45,482 nt of DNA, taken from Flavobacterium sp. MC2016-06 (GTDB taxonomy: Bacteria > Bacteroidota > Bacteroidia > Flavobacteriales > Flavobacteriaceae). Positions 27,718 through 45,482 of the stretch are shown here, piece after piece. The notes under the pieces were generated by a model, which was not told where the DNA came from, did no database searches, and saw only the letters and a program-made list of their open reading frames with translations. The position numbers and the translations under genes were made by a program. Location of the stretch: contig NZ_WMID02000040.1 in the NCBI RefSeq assembly GCF_009711165.2, positions 1-45,482 of the forward strand. Reading direction: 5' to 3'. Position 1 is the stretch's first letter; every line of letters begins with the position of its first letter.

Positions 27718-27732
27718 TTTGTAGTATCAATT

Positions 27733-28524
27733 TTATTTAAAAATTAGAACAGACAGCGAAACTAAAATAGAGACCGCTGATATAATTACTGATGTATTTG
27801 GACCAACTGCAGATGAATTGACTCTAGTTTTATTAGGTTCTACATAAACCACATCATTTTGTGCTAAATAATAGAATGGCGAATTTATGAAATCAGATTT
27901 TGTAATATCTACTCGATTATATGATTTAACCCCATTAGTTTCTCTTATAACCAAAATATTATCTCTCCTCCCATAAATAGTTAAATCTTTCCCCATACTC
28001 AAGGCTTCAATCAAAGTAACTCTTTCTGAATTAATAGGATAAGTACCTGGTAAATTTACTTCTCCTTGTAATGACACTTTGAAGTTCATTATACGAAGGT
28101 TAATAATTGGATTCTTTATATAGTTACTTAATTTATTTTGTAAAAGCTGAAGTATTTCTGTACGTGTTAACCCACCTACTTTTAATTTTCCAATTATTGG
28201 AAATTCAATACTACCACTTTGATCTACCAAATATAACTGGACTGTTTCTTGTCCACGGGTAACATCTAATTTACTGTTACCTGAAATACTATATGTTTTT
28301 AAATTAAAAGGAATTGCAACTTCAGGATCATCTGCAGAAACCAAAATCATCAATAAATCATCTGATTGAATTTTAACTTCATAAGTACTGCTATTTTGTT
28401 GTGTATTCATACTATCAATATTTTGATAGTAAACTACATCTTGTCTTGATGCACAGGAAAAACATAAAAATAAAAGCGATAAAATGCTGGTTATTTTTAT
28501 TAAAAAGGAAGATTTAATTTTCAT
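27733..28524 (-). CDS. wza: Polysaccharide export outer-membrane lipoprotein (Wza-like)
   Basis: 263 residues. The lipoprotein signal ends FLCFSC, followed by the ASRQDVVYYQN start typical of Bacteroidota Wza proteins. A poly-export domain (SDDLLMILVSADDPEVAIPF, VDQSGSIEFPIIGKLKVGGLT) is followed by an SLBB domain (VSLQGEVNLPGTYPI). A C-terminal helix (SVIISAVSILVSLSVLIF) is the membrane-spanning end. It forms the export channel with Wzc, encoded 15 bp downstream. Confidence 0.94.
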   Translation of the reverse strand: MKIKSSFLIKITSILSLLFLCFSCASRQDVVYYQNIDSMNTQQNSSTYEVKIQSDDLLMILVSADDPEVAIPFNLKTYSISGNSKLDVTRGQETVQLYLVDQSGSIEFPIIGKLKVGGLTRTEILQLLQNKLSNYIKNPIINLRIMNFKVSLQGEVNLPGTYPINSERVTLIEALSMGKDLTIYGRRDNILVIRETNGVKSYNRVDITKSDFINSPFYYLAQNDVVYVEPNKTRVNSSAVGPNTSVIISAVSILVSLSVLIFK

Positions 28525-28543
28525 TCTGTCTATAATTAGCGGG

Positions 28544-28551
28544 CAAATATA
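28544..28551 (-). promoter_or_regulatory. -7 element of the wza-wzc unit
   Basis: Minus-strand TATATTTG, a perfect consensus match about 20 bp before ATG 28524. It suggests that wza-wzc can be transcribed separately from the genes upstream. Confidence 0.55.
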
Positions 28552-28652
28552 AGGATTTAATAAATTTATTCGTTCTAAAGATACTTGTCATCTGAAACAA
28601 GTTTTTTGATTGGTGTAATATCTTAAAATCTATTAAAATTTTAGTAAAAATA

Positions 28653-30071: not shown

Positions 30072-30328
30072 ATAAATAATTAACGAATGTGTTAATAAAT
30101 TATTAGGATCTAATATTAAAAATAATTTTCATAAAAACATTTTGAAAGAGACTATCTAATCAAAAACAAATAAATTACTATATACCTTGAACTACCAGAG
30201 TCGTAATTTTTCGTAAGGCATCATTAATTTGGACAAAATGATGCATTTTCATTTTGTTCATTCTTAATTCACTTTGTAATTACCAAAAACAAATTTTTGT
30301 TATATAATAAGTTTTTTTCTATAGTGGA

Positions 30329-31027
30329 TTAATTTGATTTATATATTTTCCTGAATTTATGGAATTTTAAAAAAAAATCAGGATAATCAATTAAATATCT
30401 TTGAAAAAGCTTTGGCTCGTCAATAATTCTATATATCCAACGAATATTTAATTTATCGAAAAAAGTAGGATAATAATTTTTCTTTTTTGCTATTTGATGT
30501 AAATATCCTCCACAAGTATAGCCGTATCCAGACCATCCTGCATTTTTAAGATCAATTAAAAAGATTTCTTGATAAGGAGCTCCCATACCACAAATTACGA
30601 CATCTAATTTTTCTTTAACTAGCAAGTTAATACAATCCTCCTTCTCATAATCTTTAAAATATCCATTACGTGCATAAGCTATTTTAACATTATACTTACC
30701 CTCAATAGCATTTACTGCTTTATTGATATATTCTTCTTTTGTACCAATTATAGCTATACTAAGATTATTTATCCGTGAATGATTAAAAATAATAGGAGCT
30801 AGAGAAGTATCATCAAAACTAAATCTATTGTTTTTTAATTTGTAATATTTGTTTAATTTATTTACAAGAGAAATACCGTCGACATACCAATGATCTATTT
30901 CCTCAGCAATATCATTTCTTTCTTTCAATAAAAGCATCGAGTATGGATTTACAAATGTTGTAAGCCCTTTTTTAATTTCAAAATTAGTAATCTTTTGTAT
31001 TATTATTTTCCAACTTTTATATTCCAT
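30329..31027 (-). CDS. WecG/TagA/CpsF family glycosyltransferase (GT26)
   Basis: 232 residues, the normal length. NPYSMLLLKERNDIAEEIDH, SIAIIGTKEEYINKAVNAI, LDVVICGMGAPYQEIFL and a GYTCGGYLHQIA segment form the GT26 signature. Members add the second sugar, usually ManNAc or ManNAcA, to a lipid-linked first sugar. Adjacent to the initiating transferase gene, downstream of a GT4 by 41 bp. The 257-bp gap to the initiating transferase holds only an imperfect ACAAAATGA/TCATTTTGT hairpin near 30233-30257. Confidence 0.92.
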   Translation of the reverse strand: MEYKSWKIIIQKITNFEIKKGLTTFVNPYSMLLLKERNDIAEEIDHWYVDGISLVNKLNKYYKLKNNRFSFDDTSLAPIIFNHSRINNLSIAIIGTKEEYINKAVNAIEGKYNVKIAYARNGYFKDYEKEDCINLLVKEKLDVVICGMGAPYQEIFLIDLKNAGWSGYGYTCGGYLHQIAKKKNYYPTFFDKLNIRWIYRIIDEPKLFQRYLIDYPDFFLKFHKFRKIYKSN

Positions 31028-31068
31028 GCTTTATTCTATTTCAAAACTATTTTATTTTTTTAGTGTTT

Positions 31069-32127
31069 TTATGTGAAAGATTCGTAATAGGATATATAGT
31101 TCTTCAACATATTTGCTTTATGAAATTGTTTTAAAAAGTCACTATCTTTTAATACTTTGGCTTTTTCTTTATAAAAAGAGTATTTTTGCATCATTTCAAA
31201 AATTGCTTTAGCAAGTTGCTCTGAATTATTAGGTTCTACAATAATTCCATTATTTTCAACTAGAGTTCTAGAGGATCCCACATCAGTTGCTATTATTGGT
31301 AATCCCACAGAAGCTGCTTCAATAAATACATTTGGAAAACCTTCAAAAATAGATGATTGAATTAAAATATCTGAAATACATAACAAATTTTGAACGTCTG
31401 TTCTGTGCCCCAAAAGACGAACTTTGTCTGATAATTGATGTTTTTCAATTAACCTTTTTATTTTATCTTCAAGAGGTCCATCTCCAACTACTAAACAAAT
31501 AAAATTTTCATTTTTTAATTCACTCAAAGCTTCTATTAATTTTTGATGATTCTTTTGCTCTGATAAACGTCCTAAGCTTAACAAAATAAATTTTTCTTCA
31601 ATTCGTAGTTCTTTCTTTAAATCTTGAATTTTATTTGCGGGGATATTTTCGTAAAAATCACCGCCCATGTTAATTGTAATGTTTTTATTTTTTTTGTAAT
31701 AAGGAGCATAATAATTTTTGACTATATCTGAAAGGTACACCACATGGCTTGGTGTAATAAATTTACAGAGATAGTTATAACTTAGATAAATATTATCAAA
31801 ATTAAAAATGCTTTTTACATTAAGAAACTTTTCTGAGGCTAATAAATATGGAGTAGTAGCTCTTTTATGTCCTTGAAAAAATTGTATTTTCTCTTTTTTA
31901 ATTATTTTTAAAACTGAAGGTAAGTTCTTGTAATTTCGAACATTGATAACTATATGTTTTACTTTAGGATTTAATAATTTTGTGCTCATCCCGTCTGGAG
32001 CAAAAAGATATACGTTTTGAAAATAATCTATGTAATTATTAGCAAAAAATACCACGCGTTTCTCTTCTCCGCCAAAATTAAAATCAGGTATAATTAATGC
32101 AATAGATTTTTGAGATAAATCAGACAT
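31069..32127 (-). CDS. GT4 glycosyltransferase
   Basis: 352 residues, GT-B fold. The N-terminal IALIIPDFNFGGEEKRVV carries the glycine-rich GGEE start of GT4 enzymes. The C-terminal half has LLSLGRLSEQKNHQKLIEAL, GDGPLEDKIKRL, LLGHRTDV and SIFEGFPNVFIEAASVGLPI (the E-x7-E nucleotide-sugar site) and DVGSS. It should transfer a sugar onto the growing lipid-linked repeat unit. Confidence 0.92.
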   Translation of the reverse strand: MSDLSQKSIALIIPDFNFGGEEKRVVFFANNYIDYFQNVYLFAPDGMSTKLLNPKVKHIVINVRNYKNLPSVLKIIKKEKIQFFQGHKRATTPYLLASEKFLNVKSIFNFDNIYLSYNYLCKFITPSHVVYLSDIVKNYYAPYYKKNKNITINMGGDFYENIPANKIQDLKKELRIEEKFILLSLGRLSEQKNHQKLIEALSELKNENFICLVVGDGPLEDKIKRLIEKHQLSDKVRLLGHRTDVQNLLCISDILIQSSIFEGFPNVFIEAASVGLPIIATDVGSSRTLVENNGIIVEPNNSEQLAKAIFEMMQKYSFYKEKAKVLKDSDFLKQFHKANMLKNYISYYESFT

Positions 32128-32172
32128 TTTTTTAATAATTTTATTAAATATTTTTAATAGATTCGTGGTAAT

Positions 32173-33429
32173 TTATTTTACCATACTAATTATAACTAAT
32201 TCTGGCTTTTTAGTGCCTTCAATTATATCTTCTTCTGTAAATTTAGTAAACATAATTCTACCATTCGGATAGCGATTATAATCATACACCAAACAAATTT
32301 CACCAATGTCATTCTGAACGACAGAAGGATACGAAACAGTTCTTCGTTCATCAATTAATAATTTATAGGGCCAAGTTTTACCTTTATCTTTCGATAAAAA
32401 GGCTGTCATTTTTTCCCTTTGCGAGCTATTGTTAAAAACTATCAATAAATTCCCTGATTTTAATTTACCAATATAGGGCCTGCTACTACACATTATGCCA
32501 CCTTCCAACTGCTTAAATTTTTGTTCTCCCTGCCAAGTTTTACCATTATTAACACTTAGATTAGTACAAAGTCCATCAATGTTTTTTCTTAATAGACATA
32601 GTAATGAATCCTTTCCTATACTTACAACAGAATGTTCATCAAATGTACTCGGATAGATTCTAGGAATTCGACTAAGCAACACAGGATTATTTATCCGTTT
32701 ATTTTTTTCATCATAAGTAGCTGAATAAAGTGATGGTCCCAAAATTTCAGGCAATGTGCCATAAAAAAACTGTCCGCTAGACCATCCTTGTCCAATTCCA
32801 TAGCCATATACTGGAAATAACATTGAAGAATTATCAAGACCTGACTGTATTGGTCTTACACACATCGCTCCGGCAAACAAACGCCTAGGAGGTGTAATAG
32901 TAATGTTATTGTCTTCTAAATGGAGCATAGTTTCATAGATACCACCACGTCCTCCATCCCACATTCCTTTTGACATTGTCCAGGATAAATGAATATTCTT
33001 AAATTTATCCAACCATAATGATGAATCAAAATGTCTTATACTATCTTTCAATGGTGCTATTATCAATTTATTTTCTTCCCATGTGTTTCCCATATCTAAA
33101 CTAGTAGAAACAATTATATATTGGTTTAACTCTTCTCCATGGTTTCCTCCATCCCAAGCTGCAAATAAGACACCATCTTTGTGAACTAATGTTGGAACAC
33201 CTTGATATCCTTTTATAGGGTTTAAAATAGGATATACACTTGAATTATATAAAAAAGAAGTTTTGGAAATTGTATCAAAAGCAATTTTACTATAAACAAT
33301 AGAATCTAGAATTGGGGGTTTTGAGACCCCAGTAGGATTGGTTGAATTTGAATTATTTTGTTCATCACATGAACAAAATAAATACGTTGATAATAAAACT
33401 ATTGGCAAACAATAAAAAAAAAATTTCAT
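32173..33429 (-). CDS. Sialidase-like BNR/Asp-box lipoprotein in the polysaccharide locus
   Basis: 418 residues. The lipoprotein signal ends LFCSC; the acid pair right behind the Cys (DEQ) recalls surface-export signals of Bacteroidota lipoproteins. Three Asp boxes are visible, S-L-D-M-G-N-T-W (110-117), S-V-N-N-G-K-T-W (292-299) and S-K-D-K-G-K-T-W (346-353), as expected for a six-bladed beta-propeller. The usual FRIP arginine motif is not found: the equivalent place reads QGVPTLV, so sialidase activity is doubtful. It lies in the locus with GT genes but after a large hairpin. Confidence 0.72.
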   Translation of the reverse strand: MKFFFYCLPIVLLSTYLFCSCDEQNNSNSTNPTGVSKPPILDSIVYSKIAFDTISKTSFLYNSSVYPILNPIKGYQGVPTLVHKDGVLFAAWDGGNHGEELNQYIIVSTSLDMGNTWEENKLIIAPLKDSIRHFDSSLWLDKFKNIHLSWTMSKGMWDGGRGGIYETMLHLEDNNITITPPRRLFAGAMCVRPIQSGLDNSSMLFPVYGYGIGQGWSSGQFFYGTLPEILGPSLYSATYDEKNKRINNPVLLSRIPRIYPSTFDEHSVVSIGKDSLLCLLRKNIDGLCTNLSVNNGKTWQGEQKFKQLEGGIMCSSRPYIGKLKSGNLLIVFNNSSQREKMTAFLSKDKGKTWPYKLLIDERRTVSYPSVVQNDIGEICLVYDYNRYPNGRIMFTKFTEEDIIEGTKKPELVIISMVK

Positions 33430-33471
33430 TTGAATATAGATATTCGTTAATAATAAAATTTGATTACTTAG

Positions 33472-33525
33472 ATCTCTAATGCTTTATTAAATTAAGTCTT
33501 TTTAATTTAATAAAGCATTAGAGAT
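33472..33525. repeat. 24-bp perfect inverted repeat inside the locus
   Basis: 33472-33495 and 33502-33525 are perfect reverse complements (arm starts ATCTCTAATGCTTTATTAAA), loop GTCTTT. It lies 11 bp after the DUF1919 stop and before the sialidase-like gene. No U-tract follows on the minus strand, but it most likely ends or slows transcription. Confidence 0.85.
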
Positions 33526-33536
33526 TATTTAAAATT

Positions 33537-34199
33537 TTAATTTTGTGAATTCAATTGTTGAACAAAATATTTGTACAAAACATGTCCATTTCTATATGGG
33601 TCACCTATTTTAGGGTTTGAATAAAATTCTGGAACAATAATAGTCGATTTTAATTTATGCTCTAATTTTGTAAAGAAAAATTTATTTTTAAAAGAAAGAT
33701 TATCAAATTTTTCAATATCCTCTTTAGTACACAAATCCAATTCTGTTCCTATTACAATTAAATTCGCCAAATTAATCCGCTCTACTCTTCTATTCCATTT
33801 CTTCTCTGCCTCTTCTTCTGAATGGTAATGAAGAAAATGTATTTCGAATTTCCCTCCTAACAATCCGACAGGATATTTATGCTTTGCAGATTTAAGTCTT
33901 TCATTACCTACTGAATATTTAGATTCTGTAACAAAATCTATTTTTAACTTTAAGTTGTTTTCTAAATCAGATAAAAATTCTATATAATCAGGAAAGAAAA
34001 AATATAATCCAATTGTCGGACTAAGATAAGAATATCCCGTATCTTGATATATAAAACCACCAAGACAATTATTAGAGATAATACAAGGTGACTGGGGTAG
34101 ATATTCCTTTAAATCACCAGCATACTTCATTCGAAGGTTTTTATAATAACGATCTCTTTGTGATATAAAAAGCAGCTTTAACCTAGAAATTAACTTCAT
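33537..34199 (-). CDS. DUF1919 family polysaccharide protein
   Basis: 220 residues from ATG 34199 (MKLISRLKLLF). ISNNCLGGFIYQDTGYSYLS, PTIGLYFFFPDYIEFL and KYPVGLLGGKFEIHFLHY are the DUF1919 blocks, and EAEKKWNRRVERIN is also typical. Members are found in exopolysaccharide and LPS loci and act as sugar-modifying or transferase proteins, not well characterised. The start is uncertain: ATG 34220 and a GTG at 34235, which overlaps the stop of the gene before, are alternatives. Confidence 0.75.
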   Translation of the reverse strand: MKLISRLKLLFISQRDRYYKNLRMKYAGDLKEYLPQSPCIISNNCLGGFIYQDTGYSYLSPTIGLYFFFPDYIEFLSDLENNLKLKIDFVTESKYSVGNERLKSAKHKYPVGLLGGKFEIHFLHYHSEEEAEKKWNRRVERINLANLIVIGTELDLCTKEDIEKFDNLSFKNKFFFTKLEHKLKSTIIVPEFYSNPKIGDPYRNGHVLYKYFVQQLNSQN

Positions 34200-34231
34200 G
34201 TTAATAATTTTAAATTTCATAACTAAAATAA

Positions 34232-35233
34232 TCACAATACATAATCTACGGTTTTTTTATAATGAATATAAAGACTATCATTCATAAGCAAAGAATCGTA
34301 TGATACAACTTTATGATTAAACAATTTTCCATATAACAATAATGAACTATTAAAACCAATTATTTCTAACATCGGATATTCAACCATTATTAATTCAAAA
34401 GGAACTGTAAATGGTAATTCTGTAATTGATAAATTGCGTTCTAAAAAATATTGTCTTATTGTATTTTTATTTTCTTCTGATTGTCCAGGATGAAATTTTA
34501 TGTAATTATTATACTTAGCCGTTTCAATTATCATTATCCTTACAGCACCTAAATAAACATCTTTAGATGCAAATTTTTGTTCAATAGCTGCTTCAAAGAT
34601 ATAAATAGGATTCGAAGCATCTAAAGAAAAACCAGTTTGGATATTTGGCCATTTAACAACATGTTTTTTTTCATTAAGACTAAAAAAGCTATTAAAAGAT
34701 ATTCCAAATAATTCTGTGGGCAAATTATAACGTTTTTTCAAAAATTCATGAAAAAAAGGACTATCTGAAAACCAATATCTCTTATAGGAATTAACTCCAA
34801 AACTATAGAGTCTTTTTAAAAATTCTCTCCATGTATTTTTTCTGATTCCAAGTGATGAAGAATAACAATTAAGTCCTTCTTCAACAAATCTAATCCCTTT
34901 ACAATACTTATTTGTAGCTAATACTTGGGGCAAAAAAACACCCACATGAGGTAAATAAGCTATATAATCTTCAGAAATTTCTTCAGCAATTAAATCATCA
35001 ACTTTCGTAACTAACTTATTAAGTTTCCAAAAATAAAATTCTTCTCCATTTTTCATAGAATCAGAAAAAATATCGGATAAATCTATTTCCTTATACGGAA
35101 TCTTTATACTTTTATTAGCGTAATTTCTGGTGTATAAAAAAATTACATCCTCAGGTTTTAATTTCAAATAATTAACAACTCCAAGTGCAGTAAGAAATAA
35201 AGTATGAGTGTGAGCGTAAAATAAGTACTTCAT
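34232..35233 (-). CDS. Sialyltransferase/polysialyltransferase-like protein
   Basis: 333 residues. The opening MKYLFYAHTHTLFLTALGVV, the KFHPGQSEENKNTIRQYF segment (compare K-x-HP of GT38/GT52 sialyltransferases) and GFNSSLLLYGKLFNH near the C-terminus fit the bacterial polysialyltransferase-like group (POST/GT52 type). Identity is too low to name it surely. Its place in a locus with a NeuA-like CMP-sugar synthetase supports a CMP-dependent transferase. Fifteen base pairs follow the upstream GT4. Confidence 0.5.
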   Translation of the reverse strand: MKYLFYAHTHTLFLTALGVVNYLKLKPEDVIFLYTRNYANKSIKIPYKEIDLSDIFSDSMKNGEEFYFWKLNKLVTKVDDLIAEEISEDYIAYLPHVGVFLPQVLATNKYCKGIRFVEEGLNCYSSSLGIRKNTWREFLKRLYSFGVNSYKRYWFSDSPFFHEFLKKRYNLPTELFGISFNSFFSLNEKKHVVKWPNIQTGFSLDASNPIYIFEAAIEQKFASKDVYLGAVRIMIIETAKYNNYIKFHPGQSEENKNTIRQYFLERNLSITELPFTVPFELIMVEYPMLEIIGFNSSLLLYGKLFNHKVVSYDSLLMNDSLYIHYKKTVDYVL

Positions 35234-35248
35234 TTTTGAATAATTAAA

Positions 35249-36349
35249 CTAAAACTTATTGAACATTTTGATATACTGATCTAAAATAACTTCATAAGAG
35301 TAAGTGTTGTTAACAAAAACATGTTGTTTATTAACTAGATCATTGTACTTATCAAAACCATTATTTATTGCTTTTATTAAGACATTAGCCAAATCTTCAA
35401 CGTCTGCTGTTTTAAAAACATAACCACTTATATTATCAACAACTTCATCAGTAAATCCAGGCTGATTAGATACTATAACTGGAACATTATAATTATATGC
35501 TATCTTTAGAGGACCGCTTTGGGTTACTATTGAGTAAGGCAAAACTAAAAAATGATTATAGGCAAATAATCTAGGAATCTCTTTATTTTCAATATGTCTT
35601 ATATCTAATTCAAAAACTTCTGGATAACGAATTTTTTGCTGATAAAAACTCCAATTATCGCACCCTCCTGCAATTACAATCTTAAAATTTTTATATCCTT
35701 TGTCACACACTAAACAAGCAGCTTCAATTAACAAGTCAATATTTTTTTTTGGTCTAATTCCTCCAAAAGTAAAAAAGGAAATAAAGTCATCTCTCTTTTC
35801 TATATCACTATCTCCAAAACTTTTCAAAGCGAGCGGAATCATGCAGATATCATTATCAGGATATTTCTTAGTGAAAATTTTTTCTTGAGATTTTGAAAAC
35901 AAATTGTTAATGTTAAACCATGAATAAGAAATCTTATATAAAGTTTTATATACCCATTGATGTTGAAAACCTTCATGAACTTCACCTTGGTGAGCTGTAA
36001 GAATTGTTTTTTTTCTTTTAAAAAATAACATAGCCATGACCGTAAAATAAGGCGTAGGAACATAATTTAAATAGATGACATCAGCTTTATTTTTTATTAG
36101 TTTAGAAAAAACTGTAAAATAAGTCCATAAATAACGTGGATCACGATATCTATATTTACAGAATTGATACGTAAAAGATAAACCTTTTAAATTTTCAAAA
36201 CGAATAAAGTCTTCTCGTTTAAATCGAGCGTCTTTTGATGGAATCATTACTATCCAATCAATATCAAATTCCTTTAATAATTTTGGTATAATTTCAATAT
36301 CACAATCAACAAAATAATCAGGTGTAATCCAGACGAGTTTTTTTTTCAT
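35249..36349 (-). CDS. GT4-like glycosyltransferase
   Basis: 366 residues, GT-B. MKKKLVWITPDYFVDCD, ILTAHQGEVHEGFQHQWVYK, then FFTFGGIRPKKNIDLLIEA, VIAGGCDNW and FLVLPYSIVTQSGPLKIAYN form a GT4 pattern. The nucleotide-site Glu is less obvious than in the GT4 at 31069. An (ATT)10 microsatellite lies upstream, between it and the GT2 stop. Confidence 0.87.
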   Translation of the reverse strand: MKKKLVWITPDYFVDCDIEIIPKLLKEFDIDWIVMIPSKDARFKREDFIRFENLKGLSFTYQFCKYRYRDPRYLWTYFTVFSKLIKNKADVIYLNYVPTPYFTVMAMLFFKRKKTILTAHQGEVHEGFQHQWVYKTLYKISYSWFNINNLFSKSQEKIFTKKYPDNDICMIPLALKSFGDSDIEKRDDFISFFTFGGIRPKKNIDLLIEAACLVCDKGYKNFKIVIAGGCDNWSFYQQKIRYPEVFELDIRHIENKEIPRLFAYNHFLVLPYSIVTQSGPLKIAYNYNVPVIVSNQPGFTDEVVDNISGYVFKTADVEDLANVLIKAINNGFDKYNDLVNKQHVFVNNTYSYEVILDQYIKMFNKF

Positions 36350-36413
36350 AAAATAAATTATTCCATATTTAAGCTATCAATTTTTATATAACTAAATAAA
36401 GACAATCAAATTA

Positions 36414-36443
36414 ATTATTATTATTATTATTATTATTATTATT
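36414..36443. repeat. (ATT)10 microsatellite forming tandem stops
   Basis: Ten perfect ATT units. On the minus strand they read as nine consecutive in-frame TAA codons closing the GT2 gene at 36439. The number of units can change without moving the reading frame. Confidence 0.95.
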
Positions 36444-37413
36444 TGTACTTTTTTGAAACAAAACGTAACTTCAAACCCTCTAAAAAAGCATAGAATAACT
36501 CTATAAAATGTAGACTATATTTTTTTCGCAATGGAAACCATTGAAAAATATCTAATATTTTACCATCTCTAATACCCAATGCTATTGTTCGAATTTTTTT
36601 CTTTTGGATATTCTTTAAAATTTCTACAGGTAAGTTATTCAAAAAAACAGTATCAATCTGATTAAGCTGAACACATTTACTGTTTTCAACAAATTGCACT
36701 AACCAATTATATTCTAACAAAATTGCATCCATCTTCAATTGTCTATTACCTGTGGTAGAGATATTCATGGTGTTTTCACGATAATAAAAAACTGGATTTT
36801 GTGTATGAGCAATACCTTTTTTACTCATTGCTATATAAGAAGAAATATCATCTGATGCCCAAGCAAGAGGTAATTTAAAAAATCCTCCATTATTCTTCAA
36901 TGCACTTGTTCTATAAACAAAATCAGAAATATATTGTTGACGAATATTTTTTATTCGATGATGCATATTCTCATAAACGGTCTCATATTCAGGCCATGAA
37001 ACGGTTAATCCTTTTGATTCACCAATATCATTTATTACGACACTCCTACAATGAAAAACATCCAAATCATCATACTTACTTATAAGTGTTAAAAATTCTT
37101 CTAAATAATTAGGTGCCATTTTATCATCATCTCCCATCATGACAAAAAATTCACCTGTTGCTTTATCTAAACATTTATTCCAATTATCAACAATATGTTC
37201 AGCACCAACATTTTTATCATTTTTAAAATAAAAGATACGTTCGTCAGAAAACTCTTTTACTATTTCATCTATAGGCTGAGGAGAACAATCATTTAAAATA
37301 ATTAACTCAAAATTTATAAAAGTCTGTTCTAAAATACTACTTATGCATTCTGCTAAAAACTTGCTTTTAAATGCCGGAATAGCAATGCTAAATTTTAGAT
37401 TTTGCCTGTTCAT
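36439..37413 (-). CDS. GT2 glycosyltransferase
   Basis: 324 residues from ATG 37413. The GT-A core starts KFSIAIPAFKSKFLAECI, with LNDCSPQPIDEI, a DDDK DxD motif in FFVMMGDDDKMAPNYL and LPLAWASDDISSYIAM. A TTG at 37425 is an upstream alternative but ATG is preferred. It overlaps the Wzy gene by 26 bp, so translational coupling is likely. Donor unknown. Confidence 0.9.
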   Translation of the reverse strand: MNRQNLKFSIAIPAFKSKFLAECISSILEQTFINFELIILNDCSPQPIDEIVKEFSDERIFYFKNDKNVGAEHIVDNWNKCLDKATGEFFVMMGDDDKMAPNYLEEFLTLISKYDDLDVFHCRSVVINDIGESKGLTVSWPEYETVYENMHHRIKNIRQQYISDFVYRTSALKNNGGFFKLPLAWASDDISSYIAMSKKGIAHTQNPVFYYRENTMNISTTGNRQLKMDAILLEYNWLVQFVENSKCVQLNQIDTVFLNNLPVEILKNIQKKKIRTIALGIRDGKILDIFQWFPLRKKYSLHFIELFYAFLEGLKLRFVSKKYK

Positions 37414-38623
37414 TTGCTTTATCAACTAAGTAAAAAATTATACAATAAAAAGGAATAACTGCTGCATTAGCATAATATTCTGAAAGAAGTAGCAACATTA
37501 AGGCGTAAACAAAAAACAAAATTAAATATCTCCTAGACTGTAATTTATAAGTATAGAAAATTCCTTTTAAATTAGACCATAAAACATTAGCTACATAAAA
37601 GACACCAAACTTACTATATCCCCCTATTATTCCAACATCACTTGAGAAAAATTTTAAATCGCTATTGATTGAATTCATCTCTTTTCCATAAAGCGACAAA
37701 TTTTGTGATTGTCCGTTTCCTATAAATCTTGAAAACCAATCATCTTTTGGCCAAAACTGATTCAAATAAAAATCGGCACTCAAAAATCGAATATAATCTT
37801 CACTTGATAATTGTTCATTTGACTTTTTGATCAAACTTCCAAATAATAGATCCATATTATATATTAAAAGTCCTCCCCCAATCAATAAAAAAAGAAGTGA
37901 AAAATGAAATGATGAACCCCTTACTAAAAATGCACATATTACCAGCCCAATTAAAATTCCAAATAAAAACTGCCTTGTGCCATAATAATAAAAACCTAAA
38001 AGACCAATTATTACATATAAAATCAATATTTTTTTTCTTGTTTTCAAAAAGTGATAAAAACTAAAAAAAACAAGAAACATACCATATTGTTGACCCGAAA
38101 TTCTGAATCTTAAAAGCCCTTCTCTAATAAAGGCGTCTATTGAATCCTCGCCTCCTGCTCCAGCGTCTATTCTAAATAAATAAAAAGGAAATGTAAACTG
38201 CTGAATGATGTTTATTAACGCCCATATCACCCCTATTTTAACCGTTAATTTAATAATCTTAGATTCGCTAATATCATAAGCGTGCAACAAAAAATAAAAA
38301 AGCCAAAAGAAAATTATTCTTAATTCTATTAAAGACCAATAAAACTCTTGCTTGTGGTAAAAATATGCACCAAAACTACTAATTAAAGGAATTAGTATAA
38401 AGTATTTAACATTCTTCCTAAATAATAGATCTTTTCGTTTTAGCTTAGACCATTTATTTGCAAGCAAAAATATGGTAATAAATACAATTGCAAATTCAAA
38501 AAAATCAAAAACACGATCAGGTATATATACAAAGGACCATAAACGAATACTACCAATCAAAATTGTAAAAACAATAAAATTGTAAACCCATTTACTTGTT
38601 ATTCTAGAATTACGGCTATACAT
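37388..38623 (-). CDS. wzy: Wzy-like O-antigen/capsule polymerase
   Basis: 411 residues, about ten hydrophobic segments and a larger periplasmic loop (about 255-310) between helices. Wzy sequences are hardly conserved; this call rests on topology, size, YYYGTRQFLFGILIGL, and position between Wzx and GT genes. It should join lipid-linked repeat units at the periplasmic face. The start ATG 38623 gives a cytoplasmic basic N-terminus (MYSRNSRITSKW). Confidence 0.78.
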   Translation of the reverse strand: MYSRNSRITSKWVYNFIVFTILIGSIRLWSFVYIPDRVFDFFEFAIVFITIFLLANKWSKLKRKDLLFRKNVKYFILIPLISSFGAYFYHKQEFYWSLIELRIIFFWLFYFLLHAYDISESKIIKLTVKIGVIWALINIIQQFTFPFYLFRIDAGAGGEDSIDAFIREGLLRFRISGQQYGMFLVFFSFYHFLKTRKKILILYVIIGLLGFYYYGTRQFLFGILIGLVICAFLVRGSSFHFSLLFLLIGGGLLIYNMDLLFGSLIKKSNEQLSSEDYIRFLSADFYLNQFWPKDDWFSRFIGNGQSQNLSLYGKEMNSINSDLKFFSSDVGIIGGYSKFGVFYVANVLWSNLKGIFYTYKLQSRRYLILFFVYALMLLLLSEYYANAAVIPFYCIIFYLVDKANEQAKSKI

Positions 38624-38733
38624 ATAGTACTATAATAAATATTCGCTTACTTCCCCAAACATTATTTACAAAACCTGAAAAAAAGAAAAATATTTTTTCC
38701 AAGTAAAAAATTGATTTAAAAGGACGGCGTTGC

Positions 38734-40251
38734 TTAATAAAATTTAAAAATGTTTTTGATAATATTTTTTTCTGTTTTATCCAAAATAAAAAAATAAGTC
38801 ATTAATAAAAATGTAGAAGCAAATAATATAGATTTAAACAAAATTCTTACAAAAACATTGAAGTTATTCAAGTTATTATCAAGATAAAGAATACTTAAAC
38901 AAAGTAAACCACTGATTAAAAATGCTGGGAAGAAAGATTTAATTAAAACTTTAAATCCGTTGATTTTCATTATTTTGGGTAGATAATAAAAATAGTTAAA
39001 CAGCAATTGAACTAAAATAAAACCACCAAAACCTAAAACTGTAGCTCCAACATCATATTTGTTTACAAAAAAGATTGTAAGTAAAACAGATGCTATTGCA
39101 GCAATTAAAGATGAATAAACTAACGCTTTAGTTTTTCCAATAGACAATACAATACTTGATATAGCATAATCATGCATATAAAACATTAATAATAAATTTA
39201 TTATCAACCATTTTGTTAAATACAAAAAATCTTTTCCTACAAAAAGAAATATCAAATCTCTCACATTTAAAATAAGTCCAAAAATTAATAACGATAAAAA
39301 AATTGTGATATACTTAGTTCCGCTAAAAACTAAGTTCGTTTTTTTATCTTCATCATTTAAAGCATGACCACGAGATGCTACAGGTAATAAAACTTGCAGA
39401 AATACTGAACCCATTGACCCAACCAGCATTATTATAGTTTGAAGTACTCTATAATCAGTCAAAACCGAAGTGCCTTTAGTGGAAAATGAAGCTAATAAAA
39501 TGGGACGTAAATTATCTCCTGAAAATTGAAAAATACCCATAGCAAATATTGCTAAGCTATATTTTTGTATTTCTTTAAAAACAGAATAATCCCATTTAGG
39601 TTTAAAAAGCATTCCAGTTAAATTTTCTATAGGAATGATTCTTAAGCGATAAATATTCATTGGTATCATTACTAAAGTTGACCAAACATAAAGAAGAAAA
39701 TAAGTCTTCAAGTCTAAATGAAAATATACGCCTATGAAAGCAGTTATTAAATTCAAAACACTACTAACAATTGTTGAATAATTCGTCCATTGAATTTCTC
39801 CATAAGAAATTAATAGTTGATTAATGACATAAGCTGCCCAATTAAACACTGCACTAAATGCTAATGTAAAAAGCATAGTTCTAAAAATTGGCTCTTGATC
39901 AAGTTCTAATTTAAAAAAATGTTTTCCGTACAACCCTAAAAATGATAAAATACAAGCATTTACTACACCAATACAGCCATAAAACACAATACTTGATCTT
40001 GCGGCACCTAAAATTTTCTCTTTTTCATCATTTGCAAACCATATAGAGAAATATCTAATTGCCCCAGTATTCATTCCCATATCCATTAAACGTAAATAAG
40101 CATTTAATGAGAAAGCAAGAGCAACTAAACCGTAATCTGATTTACCGTAAAAAGCAATCAGTAATGGTATGGTAAAGAACTTGGCAAAAGCATCAACTAA
40201 TTTAGCAATGATTCCAACTAAAGAGCTGATAAATATTTTATTAGATTTCAT
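38734..40251 (-). CDS. wzx: Wzx-like flippase (MATE/oligosaccharidyl-lipid family)
   Basis: 505 residues from ATG 40251, about 12-14 hydrophobic segments. SLVGIIAKLVDAFAKFFTIPLLIAF near the N-terminus and LRLMDMGMNTGAIRYFS are typical of PST/Wzx proteins. It should flip the lipid-linked unit to the periplasmic side. An upstream TTG at 40269 overlaps the HAD gene; ATG 40251 is preferred and lies 5 bp after the HAD stop. Confidence 0.9.
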   Translation of the reverse strand: MKSNKIFISSLVGIIAKLVDAFAKFFTIPLLIAFYGKSDYGLVALAFSLNAYLRLMDMGMNTGAIRYFSIWFANDEKEKILGAARSSIVFYGCIGVVNACILSFLGLYGKHFFKLELDQEPIFRTMLFTLAFSAVFNWAAYVINQLLISYGEIQWTNYSTIVSSVLNLITAFIGVYFHLDLKTYFLLYVWSTLVMIPMNIYRLRIIPIENLTGMLFKPKWDYSVFKEIQKYSLAIFAMGIFQFSGDNLRPILLASFSTKGTSVLTDYRVLQTIIMLVGSMGSVFLQVLLPVASRGHALNDEDKKTNLVFSGTKYITIFLSLLIFGLILNVRDLIFLFVGKDFLYLTKWLIINLLLMFYMHDYAISSIVLSIGKTKALVYSSLIAAIASVLLTIFFVNKYDVGATVLGFGGFILVQLLFNYFYYLPKIMKINGFKVLIKSFFPAFLISGLLCLSILYLDNNLNNFNVFVRILFKSILFASTFLLMTYFFILDKTEKNIIKNIFKFY

Positions 40252-40256
40252 TAATT

Positions 40257-40883
40257 TTAAAATTGGCAATTGATAAAGCTATCAATATAATTTGAAGTCA
40301 TTTTTTTTAAATCTTCATTGTTATATCCTGTAAAAGAAATCTCGTTGACATTGGCGGCCTCAAGATCGTTTATAGAGTCTCCAATTAATATTAATTCTTT
40401 TTTACTATATTTATTAACTTCAATTAATTGTCTGACCAATTCCTTTTTTGGTGTTGGAGAACCGTGAATAGAAATAAAATATTCCGATAATCCCAAAGTT
40501 TTACAGATATACCTTAATTCTTTCTGATCTGATCCAGAAACAATATGCATATTAAATTTATGGTGATTTCCAACAATAAAGTTCAAAGAATCTATAATCA
40601 ACAACTTAGAATCAAGTAGATTTTCAAGCATGACTTTTGAGAATTCTTCTGCCAATGTTTGAATTTCTAACTCTGTAATAGATTGTTTTCTTATTTGCTC
40701 AAAAAAATATCTAAATTTATGGTAGCGAGAAAGTCCACCATTATTTCTATGATATTCCATTAAAAGAGAAACTTGTTCATTTGGATAATCTTTCAAAACA
40801 ATTTCAAATCCTTTATCACGAACAGGCATAGAGTCCATTATTACACCATCAAAATCCCAAAGAATTGTTTTAAACTTATCCAT
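40257..40883 (-). CDS. HAD-family phosphatase of a sugar-activation set
   Basis: 208 residues. The catalytic motif is D10-F-D12-G-V in ILWDFDGVIMDSMP; MHIVSGSDQKE carries motif II Ser, a Lys lies in SPTPKKELVRQ, and LIGDSINDLEAA is motif IV. The long N-terminal cap is helical. It overlaps the NeuA-like gene by 8 bp. Context suggests it removes phosphate from a sugar-acid phosphate before CMP activation, as KdsC does for Kdo-8-phosphate. Confidence 0.85.
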   Translation of the reverse strand: MDKFKTILWDFDGVIMDSMPVRDKGFEIVLKDYPNEQVSLLMEYHRNNGGLSRYHKFRYFFEQIRKQSITELEIQTLAEEFSKVMLENLLDSKLLIIDSLNFIVGNHHKFNMHIVSGSDQKELRYICKTLGLSEYFISIHGSPTPKKELVRQLIEVNKYSKKELILIGDSINDLEAANVNEISFTGYNNEDLKKMTSNYIDSFINCQF

Positions 40884-41571
40884 TTAAATGCTTATAAATT
40901 AATTCCGCTAATTCAAAATCATCTTCCCAATCAACATCAAATGAGTTATATCCTGATTGCTCCATTAAATATGGTTTATTCCCAATTCTGTCTTGATTAT
41001 TAAAATAAATGTTTTTAGAAGCAATAAAAAAAGCACTATCTATTTCATACAAAGGCATTAAATCTTGTGTTCTAGGCCACTTAATATCTGTTAATCTATT
41101 GATTAAATCATTCTTTTCTTTTGACCATAAAAAATTTTGAAGTGTTTTTACACTCATTAAAGAATCATGTTCTTCATTGGTAATAGCTTCAAAATACGTT
41201 TTAATAGCCTTATCATAATCTTCAGCCTGAACAAAAGGCGAAGTAACATGTGTCCATAAAATATGAGACATATTACAAATTAAAGGTACATATTTCACTA
41301 AATCTATTAAATTTGTACTACTTAAGGCAAGATTCTCTGGACGCTCAATAATCTTTAATCTACTTTCTTTATTCGCTAATTTAGCTCCGTATTCTAATGA
41401 AGCATCATCATTTGAAGATAGTACTATTTCATGAATTAATTCCGTCTTTAAAAGCTGATTTAATTTAATTTCAAGTAATCCATTTTCAACATCACAAAAT
41501 TTTCTTGTATTTTTATTTACTACTCTTTCGCTTCCTTTTCTTGTAGGCAAAAAAACACTTACTCCTTCCAT
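40876..41571 (-). CDS. Acylneuraminate (CMP-sugar) cytidylyltransferase, NeuA-like
   Basis: 231 residues, NeuA/KdsB fold. The CTP-binding loop is FLPTRKGSERVVNKN (8-21). Further hallmarks are IVLSSNDDASLEYG, ERPENLALSSTN, HVTSPFVQAEDYDKAI, and the C-terminal GYNSFDVDWEDDFELAE (the DxDxxxDF block). It should form a CMP-activated 2-keto acid sugar. No neuB or neuC homologue lies in the window. Gap to the aldolase is 5 bp; it overlaps the HAD gene by 8 bp. Confidence 0.9.
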   Translation of the reverse strand: MEGVSVFLPTRKGSERVVNKNTRKFCDVENGLLEIKLNQLLKTELIHEIVLSSNDDASLEYGAKLANKESRLKIIERPENLALSSTNLIDLVKYVPLICNMSHILWTHVTSPFVQAEDYDKAIKTYFEAITNEEHDSLMSVKTLQNFLWSKEKNDLINRLTDIKWPRTQDLMPLYEIDSAFFIASKNIYFNNQDRIGNKPYLMEQSGYNSFDVDWEDDFELAELIYKHLNG

Positions 41572-41576
41572 ATCAA

Positions 41577-43109
41577 TTATTTATAAAGCTCAGAATAAAC
41601 AGATTCTTGCTGCAAACCTTTATATTTTGTAGGAGTAAAAGATTTTAAACTAATATTGTTTTTTGAAAAATTCTTAAACAAGTATTCATTCTCATTAAAC
41701 AATTCTAATTTATGCTGTGTTATTTCTCCATTGTATCCATCATAACCACAAAATATAAGTTCCTGAACTTTTATTTCTTTTGTTAATTGAAGAACTAATG
41801 CCGTAATTGAATTTTTATATTTATCTGTTACATTAATTTCCGAAAGCTGATATGAATTTAATTTAAAATTCTGAGGTATATAAGTACCCATTGTTCTAGG
41901 GTATGGTGGTAATATTGCAATCCTATTATTTGGCACAGAATTAAACACTTTTTCTAATCGATGTCCTTCATTACCTGCAAGACAATGAAATTGTTTATTA
42001 ATACAATCATTAAAATAACTCACATTTCTTGAACTTGAATGTATTAATACCACACCTGGATTTAATACTAAATAATTCTTAATCGCATCGATATGTTCTT
42101 TAATACTATCTCCTCCACCTATTATTAAAGCTTTATCAAAAATTTCATTAGAATTGTACTCATTTAATGTTTCATTATCTTTTAATCCTTTGGATTGATT
42201 ACTTAAAGCTCTAATAATACTATTGTATGAATAATATCTTTTTCCAACCCAGTCCATAACATCTTTTTGTGGTAAAGAATTTGCTCCAGAAACCATATAA
42301 GGTAAATTAGTACCCCATTCATATTCTTTTTGTAATTGAGTAAAGGCATCTGTAACCGACGAAAGTGCATTAAAATCAACTTCTAAATTATCACGATGAT
42401 TTAAAGCAGTTAATAAAAGTTCTGTTTTTAAATTACCAGCTCCTCTTCCCATACCTGTAATAGTAGCATCTACCATATCAGCTCCACACTCAATTGCTGT
42501 TAATGTATTAATAAGGGCTAGTTCTAAATTATTATGTCCATGAAAACCAATTTTAGTACTCATTTGTGAACGAACTAATGCATAAATTTCTTTTACATCT
42601 TCTGGATAAACACCACCATACGAATCTACCATGTAAAAATAATCTGCAACTCCATCTACATATTTCAGATTAGATAAAAAGTCTGGAAGGTTTTTCCATT
42701 TTGACATGTACATAACATTAAATCCTACTTCAAATCCCATTGATTTAACTTTTTTTGCCAAATCAATTGCTCTTAATAACTGGTCTGGATCGATTGCAAT
42801 TCTAACCATCGTAATTATTCCTAAACACGGCTTTAATAATTCTTCTACTATATCAAGTTTTATATTTTTTTCATCAAGAATGATAACTAGCTTTTTATTG
42901 GTTAAAGCTGCTATTTTTTTCAACACAAAATCTGGGCAATAAAAATATTCTCCATAATATCCCAAAAGTTTTGGACTTCTGTATCCAACTTCTAGATATT
43001 CGATTGGCAAATCATTTAGAGATGTTAAATAATTATCAACTAAATGCTGGTTAAAATCCCAATTGGTATAATATCCCCCGTCTCGTAATGTACAATCCAA
43101 TATTTTCAT
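41577..43109 (-). CDS. DRE-TIM (HMGL-like) aldolase fused to a Rossmann-like domain
   Basis: 510 residues. The TIM-barrel half (1 to about 285) begins ILDCTLRDGGYYTN with catalytic R9 and metal ligand D10. The H190-x-H192 metal pair lies in GFHGHNNLEL, and the cap motif is TGMGRGAGN. DCTLRDGGY and lack of an acetyl-CoA region point to the pyruvate/HOA-type aldolase branch. From about 320 a second domain begins ALIIGGGDSIKEHIDAIK, like the DUF115/MptE-type nucleotide-binding family, and runs to the end. Context suggests it makes a 2-keto acid sugar for the NeuA-like enzyme; the substrate is not known. Confidence 0.85.
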   Translation of the reverse strand: MKILDCTLRDGGYYTNWDFNQHLVDNYLTSLNDLPIEYLEVGYRSPKLLGYYGEYFYCPDFVLKKIAALTNKKLVIILDEKNIKLDIVEELLKPCLGIITMVRIAIDPDQLLRAIDLAKKVKSMGFEVGFNVMYMSKWKNLPDFLSNLKYVDGVADYFYMVDSYGGVYPEDVKEIYALVRSQMSTKIGFHGHNNLELALINTLTAIECGADMVDATITGMGRGAGNLKTELLLTALNHRDNLEVDFNALSSVTDAFTQLQKEYEWGTNLPYMVSGANSLPQKDVMDWVGKRYYSYNSIIRALSNQSKGLKDNETLNEYNSNEIFDKALIIGGGDSIKEHIDAIKNYLVLNPGVVLIHSSSRNVSYFNDCINKQFHCLAGNEGHRLEKVFNSVPNNRIAILPPYPRTMGTYIPQNFKLNSYQLSEINVTDKYKNSITALVLQLTKEIKVQELIFCGYDGYNGEITQHKLELFNENEYLFKNFSKNNISLKSFTPTKYKGLQQESVYSELYK

Positions 43110-43154
43110 ATCTATATTTTATTTCAATAATTTAGGTAATTATTTCTAAATTAA

Positions 43155-43580
43155 TTATTTCACTCTAGTCAATTCTTTGACTGCAACTTCTTTTCGTAAA
43201 CCGCTGCTTGAAAAACGATGATCTCGTACATTAAAATACAATTCTATCCCTTTTTCTTCACAATAAATACGTCCTGTGAAATTTTTATCTTTATATTCGT
43301 CTCCAAGAATACGAACATCTATTTTAAAAGAACGTAAGATATCATCTAAATCTTGTTCGGTTGCATACGGTACAATTTCATCAACAAATTTACAACCTTT
43401 AAGTTGTATATATCGCTCTACTACCGTTTGAGTTGGACTATTCTTTTCAGGACGATCTAATGTTGGATCCGTTTGCAGACCTACAATTAAATAATCACAC
43501 TGCTGTTTTGCATCTTCTAACATTTTTATATGCCCTGCATGTAATAAATCAAAGGCACTAAAGGTAATTCCTACTTTCAT
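43155..43580 (-). CDS. TagD-like cytidylyltransferase
   Basis: 141 residues, the HxGH nucleotidyltransferase family. H14-A-G-H17 in SAFDLLHAGHIKML, VERYIQLKG and the SSSGLRK (about 124-130) near the end match glycerol-3-phosphate cytidylyltransferases and relatives (TagD, HldE C-domain, Ect). It should activate a phosphate ester with CTP or ATP. First gene of the long minus-strand run, 45 bp before the aldolase. Substrate unknown; glycerol-3-phosphate is one option. Confidence 0.88.
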   Translation of the reverse strand: MKVGITFSAFDLLHAGHIKMLEDAKQQCDYLIVGLQTDPTLDRPEKNSPTQTVVERYIQLKGCKFVDEIVPYATEQDLDDILRSFKIDVRILGDEYKDKNFTGRIYCEEKGIELYFNVRDHRFSSSGLRKEVAVKELTRVK

Positions 43581-43796
43581 AATTTTATACTAAAACCTTA
43601 GTTTAAGACACAGCTTCGCTATCCTAACTCCCATTAAAGAAATCAGAAAACTCACATTGCTGCAAATATATTCACATTTTCAAGACTTTTAAATCAAAAT
43701 TTTACAACTAAATGTTCCAGAATTAACAACAGAAAGCATTTAACTCAATATCAGATAGATACATAAAAATTTAAACTTCTTTTTCAATATTTTTTG

Positions 43797-43825
43797 CAAA
43801 AGTAGCATTTCAAATTTCATTCAAA
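43797..43825 (-). promoter_or_regulatory. Complete promoter of the polysaccharide run
   Basis: On the minus strand TTTG (43822-43825), a spacer of 17 bp, then TACTTTTG (43797-43804). This is the best -33/-7 pair in the window. It would give a leader of about 210 nt. Confidence 0.65.
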
Positions 43826-43946
43826 AAATGAAAAATACAGAAATGTCTTATTTTGTTACTTTTAAAACATAATCTTTCTACTAGGCATAACTACCCGAAA
43901 TGAAAAAAATATATTTTTTCATGAGAATTGATTATACTAAAAACGC

Positions 43947-43981
43947 TTTAAAACTCATATGTTAGGCGCATAAGTTTTAAA
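43947..43981. repeat. Inverted repeat between divergent genes
   Basis: TTTAAAACT (43947-43955) and AGTTTTAAA (43973-43981), with a small ATG/CAT pairing inside. It could be an operator or part of a terminator-like structure. Confidence 0.5.
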
Positions 43982-44010
43982 TATTTAACATAGATTCTAT
44001 TTAAAAATCT

Positions 44011-44018
44011 TAAATTTG
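44011..44018 (+). promoter_or_regulatory. -7 element of the propeller-protein gene
   Basis: TAAATTTG, a perfect match; it lies 24 bp before the TTG start, just ahead of a GGGGAGGAAAAGG purine run. Confidence 0.5.
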
Positions 44019-44042
44019 GGGAGGAAAAGGTAATATATTACA

Positions 44043-45017
44043 TTGAAAAAAACGATATTTTTTTTATTTTTACATGCAACGATTATTCAAGCACAAGTTT
44101 CAGGATGCACTGATGTTCTGTCGAAAAATTATAATCCGAAAGCATTAATAAATAATGGAAGCTGTTCTTATAAAAATCTGAAGATAAAACCTGAATTTTC
44201 GATTAAGTTAAGTGACTCTATAAAAGAGACTTCAGGATTAATTGCTTTCGATAATTTATTATGGACGCATAATGATGATCATGACAAAACTATCTATGGA
44301 TTAGACTCTTTGGGAAGAATTCAAAAAAAAATCATTCTTAACAAAGTAATAAATCATGACTGGGAAGAAATTTCGCAAGACAGCTCTTATTTATACATTG
44401 GAGACTTCGGAAATAATTATAGAGGAAACAGAACTGATTTACATATTCTAAAAATCGAAAAAAAATCTTTTTTAGAAGGAAATCCAATTATAGATACAAT
44501 TTCTTTTTCATATTCAGACCAAACCAATTTTAATCCTCAAAAAGCAAATACAACCAATTTTGATTGTGAGGCTTTTGTAGTTTCAAAAGACAGCATTTAT
44601 TTATTCACCAAACAATGGCGAGCTTCTAAAACCAGTATTTATGTTTTGCCCAATCGAGCCGGAAATCATATTTCACAATTAAAAGAAACCATCAATACAA
44701 ATGGTTTAGTAACGGGCTCAACTTATCTTGAAGCTAAAAAATTAATTGTACTTTGCGGGTATTCTAAATTAGGGAAATCTTTTTTGTACCTTTTATACGG
44801 CTTTAAAGATCATGATTTCTCAAGTGGAAATAAAAGAAAGGTTGACTTAAAACTTCCGTTTCATCAAATTGAAGGAATTGCTACAAAAGATGGTTTACAT
44901 TATTATGTAACTAATGAAAATCTAGTACGGAAACCTATTTTGAATATTTCCCAGCAAATTCATTATTTTGATTTAAGCGCTTTATTAAATTCTTACCTCA
45001 ACGCTACAAATCCTTAA
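44043..45017 (+). CDS. Secreted propeller-like protein with a GCTD motif, TTG start
   Basis: 324 residues. Translation must start at TTG 44043: an in-frame TAA lies at 44031-44033 and no ATG comes between. The signal peptide MKKTIFFLFLHATIIQAQ follows directly. After it a GCTDVLSKNYNPKALINNGS segment is the short GCTD/NYNP/GSCxY repeat found in many exported Bacteroidota proteins. The rest (LLWTHNDDHDKTIYGLD, YLYIGDFGNNYRGNRTD, FDCEAFVVSKDSIYLFTKQW, HQIEGIATKDGLHYYVTNE) reads like propeller blades of an NHL or esterase-like family. No sorting domain is seen at the C-terminus. Function unknown. Confidence 0.8.
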   Translation: MKKTIFFLFLHATIIQAQVSGCTDVLSKNYNPKALINNGSCSYKNLKIKPEFSIKLSDSIKETSGLIAFDNLLWTHNDDHDKTIYGLDSLGRIQKKIILNKVINHDWEEISQDSSYLYIGDFGNNYRGNRTDLHILKIEKKSFLEGNPIIDTISFSYSDQTNFNPQKANTTNFDCEAFVVSKDSIYLFTKQWRASKTSIYVLPNRAGNHISQLKETINTNGLVTGSTYLEAKKLIVLCGYSKLGKSFLYLLYGFKDHDFSSGNKRKVDLKLPFHQIEGIATKDGLHYYVTNENLVRKPILNISQQIHYFDLSALLNSYLNATNP

Positions 45018-45369
45018 AAAAATCTTCGAGCGTCATTTTATGAATGTCTAAGACTTTTATCAAAGTTTTCAAAGTCATCATATACAACTGTTTTACTGCA
45101 AATTACAAGATGATTTTCGTCAAAAAATAAACTTGTATATTATATGCGGTAATTTTTACGCTCTATTTTTTGGAATTTTCCGCTGTATAAAAAATAACAT
45201 TATCAAAAAAATAGATCCTACAAGGTATTTTTTCTGCTAAAAAACCTATTATATACGTTTTTTTATAAATAGATTTTATTAATCTTCGCCATTATAATAA
45301 AGCATTAAAAAGTAACAACAACGGTATATTTGAGATTATTCAATTATTCAAAAAAAAAAAATCAGCATC
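45018..45369. other. Gene-free AT-rich region before the RadC-like gene
   Basis: 352 bp, very AT-rich. Apart from a TATATTTG -7 candidate at 45325-45332 and a few short inverted repeats, no RNA gene, att-like direct repeat or ORF was seen. If a mobile element starts to the right, its end could be in here. Confidence 0.45.
45325..45332 (+). promoter_or_regulatory. -7 element of RadC-like gene
   Basis: TATATTTG, a perfect consensus match 38 bp before ATG 45370. Confidence 0.45.
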
Positions 45370-45482
45370 ATGAAAATAGTAAAAGATAAGCAGGATTGGA
45401 AAATCGCATCGGAAATTGAACTGATTTATAAAAGTAAAATAAAAGCATCTGAACGACCTCATATTACATCTTCTAGTGTTGT
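45370..45482 (+). CDS. RadC/JAB-domain protein, 5' part only
   Basis: Thirty-seven codons and part of the next before the window ends. MKIVKDKQDWKIASEIEL followed by IYKSKIKASERPHITSSS matches the N-terminus of the RadC-like JAB-domain proteins often carried on Bacteroidota integrative and conjugative elements. The catalytic JAMM motif would lie outside the window. A purine-rich A-run (about 45350-45361) lies just before the start. Confidence 0.65.
   Translation, partial: MKIVKDKQDWKIASEIELIYKSKIKASERPHITSSSV

Follow-up and report, generated by a model that had tools for sequence, protein, structure and literature searches.

Can a keto-acid sugar activated with cytidine monophosphate (CMP) be made without a NeuB or KdsA synthase? 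To our knowledge, all such sugars (sialic acids, Kdo, legionaminic and pseudaminic acid) are made by phosphoenolpyruvate (PEP)-dependent synthases of the KdsA/NeuB superfamily. The question is raised by a polysaccharide locus of Flavobacterium sp. MC2016-06 on contig NZ_WMID02000040.1, whose positions 1 to 45,482 were analyzed and are called the window here. On its minus strand lie three adjoining genes, encoding a 510 amino acid aldolase (ALD; 41577..43109), a NeuA-like CMP-synthetase (40876..41571) and a HAD phosphatase of the HAD_2 type (40257..40883), which an initial annotation had read as a NeuB-free route to a CMP-activated keto-acid sugar. We think that this trio is probably a cassette that supplies a CMP-activated 3-deoxy-2-ulosonic acid and bypasses both NeuB and KdsA, because gene linkage, exchange of partners, protein families, predicted folds and occurrence without a NeuB match agree with this reading.

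The coordinates confirm the tight packing described at the outset, with a 5-bp gap between the ALD and NeuA-like genes and an 8-bp overlap between the latter and the HAD gene. All three proteins score above their Pfam cut-offs: ALD with PF00682 (the DRE-TIM or HMGL-like family; 81.7 bits, cut-off 29), the NeuA-like protein with the CMP-ulosonate synthetase family PF02348 (35.1 bits, cut-off 22.6) and the phosphatase with PF13419 (60.8 bits, cut-off 23.8). The DRE-TIM barrel of ALD comprises residues 1-307 (42189..43109). R9 and the metal-site residues D10, H190 and H192, which the initial annotation had picked out, are present and are invariant across 41 aligned ALD sequences, the window's counted in, so that both the score and the metal-site D/HxH place ALD in PF00682. 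By profile score as well as by fold, the barrel is closest to the 4-hydroxy-2-oxovalerate aldolases, and citramalate and homocitrate synthases rank next. No equivalog model fits the NeuA-like protein (PseF, TIGR03584, reached 53.8 of 205.7 bits), and the best 25 of 29 NCBIfam matches to the HAD protein included no KdsC model but other HAD types.

The trio is a recurrent, conserved cassette. A scan of contigs from one genome per species recovered 65 ALD loci (L numbers below), 30-89% identical, mostly from Bacteroidota but with Roseomonas-like, Methylobacterium-like, Sphingomonas, Burkholderiales and SAR86 members; the closest named relatives bear Flavobacterium names. A CMP-synthetase of the NeuA or KdsB type lies within 4 kb on the same strand in 59 of the 65 loci and, by the same measure, a HAD gene in 52, which bears out the co-occurrence that the initial annotation had proposed to look for. 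As a background rate, CMP-synthetases make up 68 of the 1114 other open reading frames, mechanically picked, of those stretches. Loci L018 and L033 have another PF02348 protein instead. An evenly drawn sample of the phylum (395 genomes) contained ALD in nine, our own genome counted; the eight other genomes have nine loci between them, each with a CMP-synthetase as well as a HAD gene (that of L136 identified by eye). This sample overlaps the first set and is not wholly independent: L139 was taken as the place of L028, L118 and L119 as the same places as L055 and L052, and L134, L137, L138 and L139 were judged on shorter stretches of those places. A sample of the family had ALD in 5 of 149 genomes. 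Such patchy presence in phylum and family suggests that the cassette spread laterally along with capsule loci.

That two distant lines of CMP-synthetase, NeuA and KdsB, are found in one slot is the strongest sign that a CMP-activated keto-acid sugar is the cassette's end product. The cassette NeuA proteins form a single clade (32 rows, support 100) apart from seven NeuB-linked ones. Eighteen cassette KdsB proteins, with one additional P. vulgatus sequence inside the group, cluster apart from the housekeeping-type KdsB (support 92), and both tested members of the slot's KdsB type, from L036 and L053, exceed a KdsB subfamily cut-off. Along the ALD tree the NeuA or KdsB label changes eight times, and at least six changes are forced for the KdsB group by well-supported branches. 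These were trees of a quick kind with SH-aLRT support only, with warnings for long branches (L080, L062 and others) and for joined long branches, and the CMP-synthetase tree was built after removal of 16 rows that were near-copies or duplicates.

The statement that no NeuB or KdsA-type protein lies in the window also stood: the window cluster has none, and the genome's NeuB and PF00793 matches are spread over contigs C4, C8 and C23, and none is on C40. Elsewhere the genome does have two NeuB genes; the first belongs to a legionaminic-like set, and the second adjoins a NeuC-like gene (both labels by eye). The initial annotation had named a complete NeuB set that feeds the window's NeuA as an outcome that would speak against it, and this is half of what we found; two NeuB genes stand in nonulosonic-type clusters, but each has its own CMP-synthetase nearby, and the window's NeuA belongs to a different clade. 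The genomes of 50 of the 65 loci were searched for NeuB (left out were L044, taken as the same assembly as L026, L065-L077 and L080). A NeuB match was present in 34 of these, in 33 above the cut-off, and absent from 16, several of which are draft or metagenome assemblies; L036, a KdsB-type cassette of Pedobacter sp. PAMC26386, comes from a chromosome that is complete by its title and is among the 16. This result suggests that NeuB is not needed, while Kdo is still a possible substrate. Of the proposed NeuB-free route, therefore, the DRE-TIM aldolase in the NeuB/KdsA place beside a CMP-synthetase, with partners conserved over Bacteroidota and some Pseudomonadota and found without a NeuB match, has held up, but the presence of a KdsA-type gene leaves room for Kdo.

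A pathway can be proposed on this basis. The metal-dependent ALD barrel would add the enolate of pyruvate to an aldehyde of central metabolism, probably a phosphorylated one, the HAD enzyme would take the phosphate off the product, and the NeuA-like enzyme would join the free keto-acid sugar to CMP. The sugar would then be added to the repeat unit by a CMP-sugar transferase encoded in the locus, perhaps the polysialyltransferase-like protein at 34232..35233, with export to follow. Profile searches of the window's proteins recognized no further sugar-biosynthesis gene in its locus, which points to a housekeeping acceptor aldehyde.

Pyruvate aldol chemistry for the slot is supported by a cluster that does without ALD. 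In L116 (7323-12401) an HpcH/HpaI aldolase lies beside relatives of the window's NeuA (31%) and HAD (30%), and L114 (3477-8195) is alike by eye; each has six genes, for a NeuA-like protein, an HpcH aldolase, an epimerase, a phosphogluconolactonase-like protein, a HAD protein and a 2-hydroxyacid dehydrogenase. The best-matching models for the HpcH relatives of L116 and L018 are those of 4-hydroxy-2-oxoheptanedioate and 2-dehydro-3-deoxyglucarate aldolases, with scores that do not reach the curated equivalog cut-offs, and the aldolases whose models best match the L116 protein are pyruvate-dependent. From its gene content the six-gene cluster appears to be a further, undescribed CMP-sugar route built on a pyruvate-type aldolase. 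A search of our own genome for an HpcH aldolase elsewhere gave one match, at 21 of 25 bits, the DapA/NanA family not being searched; it seems that no HpcH aldolase serves the window's trio.

Several observations weigh against a cassette that works as proposed. ALD falls far below the cut-offs of the hydroxy-oxovalerate aldolase models (TIGR03217, 93.1 of 286 bits; NF006049, 104.1 of 229 bits). After its RDG motif it has Tyr13, which aligns with the His of 4lrs, 8ih7 and 4jn6, and the His after this motif is the catalytic base in 4-hydroxy-2-oxovalerate aldolases. Five loci (L018, L033, L131, L133 and L136) have ALD and an HpcH aldolase together, along with a CMP-synthetase and a HAD gene, so that ALD need not be the sole condensing enzyme; an epimerase-like gene lies between in L033, L133 and L136, and also in L132, which has no HpcH gene (L132, L133 and L136 by eye). 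No CMP-synthetase was found near ALD in 4 of the 65 loci (L065, L071, L073 and L076). Conversely, the L113 genome has kept a member of the cassette NeuA clade (L113:8406-9083, 51% identical, adjoining a flippase-like gene) and has no ALD match at E 1e-40. In six loci (L047, L049, L053, L057, L059 and L079) a PfkB-type gene resembling 2-keto-3-deoxygluconate (KDG) kinase stands in the HAD position, and seven of the 65 loci have neither gene. KdsA-type genes, judged as such by length and PF00793 score, are also at hand: our own genome has one, besides one longer DAHP synthase, and so do 13 of the 16 cassette genomes without a NeuB match.

The KDG-kinase-like genes in the phosphatase place misfit a simple dephosphorylation step and point to 2-keto-3-deoxy acids. 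The product might thus be a short acid of this kind (e.g. C5 or C6, as KDG) rather than a C8 or C9 ulosonic acid, a special case of the proposed cassette that we regard as fairly unlikely. Besides the six loci above, a KDG-kinase-like PfkB accompanies a distant ALD (28% over 293 residues, motif LRDGGYCNDW) and a NeuA relative in L115 (7668-10957), and the best-scoring models of the L116 and L018 HpcH proteins also favor short acids. However, all of those scores are under the equivalog cut-offs, a kinase and a phosphatase work in opposite directions, and the KdsB-type partners rather suggest a Kdo-like acid.

The KdsB-type partners lead to a second alternative, namely that the CMP-synthetase slot activates an ordinary acid for the capsule, above all Kdo made by KdsA, while ALD and the HAD enzyme provide a second route to Kdo or an epimer of it, or alter the chain in some other way. 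KpsU activates Kdo for the group 2 capsules of E. coli. The slot proteins of L036 and L053 that exceed the KdsB cut-off and the KdsA-type genes of our own and the NeuB-free genomes all fit this explanation, but these genomes each also have a housekeeping-type KdsB, which is apart in the tree, and a simple supply of Kdo from KdsA leaves the strict linkage of ALD to a CMP-synthetase unexplained. KdsA-type genes and CMP-synthetases were counted in 20 genomes. Eleven of the 13 NeuB-free genomes with a KdsA-type gene have exactly two CMP-synthetases, as expected if one serves Kdo and the other the cassette, and the remaining two genomes have three; in our own genome there are four, and its two NeuB genes and one KdsA-type gene leave the window's synthetase over. 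We regard this Kdo alternative, too, as fairly unlikely.

It is improbable that ALD is a Claisen-type enzyme that joins acetyl-CoA to a keto acid, as citramalate and isopropylmalate synthases do, or a lyase of central metabolism that came to lie in capsule loci by chance; the Pfam family is held in common and citramalate and homocitrate synthases come next in sequence and fold, but against the Claisen-type PF00682 synthases (isopropylmalate, homocitrate, citramalate) the best score of ALD was 63.2 of 517 bits, short of the cut-off. That the NeuA-like protein serves one of the genome's two NeuB pathways, the trio being an accident of the locus, has the two NeuB genes and the 34 NeuB-matching cassette genomes on its side and is very improbable, given the CMP-synthetase near each NeuB, the 16 cassette genomes without one, the separate clade of the cassette NeuA and its linkage to ALD in most loci.

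To return to the proposed ulosonic acid cassette, ALD has a second half, which the initial annotation missed, as it did the polysialyltransferase-like gene and the loci with an extra HpcH or a KDG-kinase-like gene. Most rows of the full-length fold search spanned residues 1-307, and the C-terminal part was therefore modelled separately. In the predicted structure, residues from about 312 to 510 (with the stop, 41577..42176) form a separate, confidently folded domain, and a fold search with the model indicated that it shares the fold of Maf, MptE and GT42 (sialyltransferase) proteins. Matches in a viral fold library were phage proteins, some named MptE-like, and a search of PDB sequences with a profile of the domain was uninformative (best E 0.08). 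An MptE-like protein is also encoded in L115 (5455..6264; PF01973, above cut-off). The catalytic His of CstII sits at the position following the GYDGY of ALD, and no conserved His was seen after this invariant motif in the alignment. The predicted fold suggests that the domain may bind the CMP-sugar or its nucleotide. It is possible, though doubtful, that the loci represent a second class of ulosonic acid synthesis, independent of NeuB and KdsA, that has moved by lateral transfer between the capsule loci of Bacteroidota and of some Pseudomonadota. In this class the pyruvate aldolase would carry a sialyltransferase-fold domain able to bind or transfer the CMP-activated product, and a single protein would thus make the sugar and sense or handle its activated form.

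Candidate users of the sugar are found in the window and in other loci. The polysialyltransferase-like protein (34232..35233, minus strand) matches PF07388 at 28.7 bits (cut-off 23.3). Among the 65 ALD loci, clusters of GT29 sialyltransferase-like proteins occur in 10, of PF07388 polysialyltransferase-like proteins in 8 and of PF05159 capsule-synthesis proteins in 8, each family assigned from one to three tested members; together they touch 19 loci, 13 of which have no NeuB in the stretches examined. A lipoprotein-like BNR/sialidase-like protein (32173..33429, minus strand; PF13088, 59.7 bits, above cut-off) is a possible hydrolase of the cassette sugar. Relatives occur in 6 of the 65 loci besides the window (L016, L017, L028, L042 twice, L050 and L061).

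The polysaccharide locus, of the Wzy type by eye, spans about 25330..43580 on the minus strand. Transcription runs from a small nucleotidyltransferase of the TagD/RfaE kind (43155..43580; 68 and 66 bits, far below the respective curated cut-offs of 165 and 182) through ALD, the NeuA-like gene, the HAD gene and a flippase-like membrane protein (38734..40269) to the glycosyltransferases, the polysialyltransferase-like protein included; the spacings between the first five genes are 45, 5, -8 and -13 bases, negative values being overlaps. The nucleotidyltransferase gene directly precedes ALD in the window and is not found upstream of it in two near relatives, L016 and L017. The flippase-like protein scores below the MatE cut-off (17.2 bits), and its putative Wzx role is suggested by its position. 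A DUF1919 gene (33537..34235; 5.5e-47) adjoins the polysialyltransferase-like gene. There were no Rfam matches within 28000..45482. A phosphonate route was also considered and dropped because no PEP mutase was seen; of the genome's two PF13714 matches, the one above the cut-off (53 bits) is by eye an isocitrate lyase, and the other, below the cut-off, was not examined. Farther away, the large secreted-type proteins at 3..1058 and 1073..5134 share long, near-identical C-terminal repeat stretches, a tandem duplication.

We found no paper describing the trio by title or abstract start in the open-access literature, preprints and subscription papers lying outside this search. A Klebsiella capsule may hold a 3-deoxy-pentulosonic acid, but a search of these papers returned nothing on it. 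If the proposed cassette is real, it would provide a new aldolase for keto-acid sugar synthesis and a second kind of entry into a known family of acidic, sialic-acid-like surface sugars, and surveys based on neuB and kdsA would miss a class of surface sugars made by Bacteroidota of the environment and the gut. The "putative aldolases" of capsule loci become a directly testable pathway, and the solved structure 3dxi, so far without an assigned role, would gain a function. That structural-genomics entry, the barrel alone, is the N-terminal domain of BVU_2661 of Bacteroides (Phocaeicola) vulgatus, a "putative aldolase"; in its source locus, unlike the window, a KDG-kinase-like gene occupies the HAD position.

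Compared with the DmpG/BphI-type 4-hydroxy-2-oxovalerate aldolases (TIGR03217), the R, D and HxH metal-site residues of ALD align, but the window has no recognized acylating dehydrogenase partner and ALD carries the extra C-terminal domain. That domain differs from Maf and from the GT42 and GT29 sialyltransferases in its fusion to an aldolase, and its sequence similarity to the Maf flagellin glycosyltransferases does not reach the Pfam cut-off (17.4 of 34.6 bits). The L114 and L116 clusters share with the window a pyruvate-aldolase-type enzyme and relatives of its NeuA and HAD proteins, but have another aldolase family and the extra epimerase, phosphogluconolactonase-like and 2-hydroxyacid dehydrogenase genes. 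In the Kdo and nonulosonic acid pathways (KdsA-KdsC-KdsB, NeuB-NeuA and the legionaminic and pseudaminic acid sets), as would be the case here, a keto-acid sugar is condensed, in some of them dephosphorylated, and activated with CMP by a PF02348 enzyme, and sialyltransferase-type transferases lie nearby in some loci. The trio differs in its first enzyme, a PF00682 aldolase fused to a Maf-fold domain rather than NeuB or KdsA, and in every CMP-ulosonate pathway known to us the first enzyme belongs to a superfamily other than that of ALD. What is new is thus the superfamily of the first enzyme, and the later steps are of known kinds.

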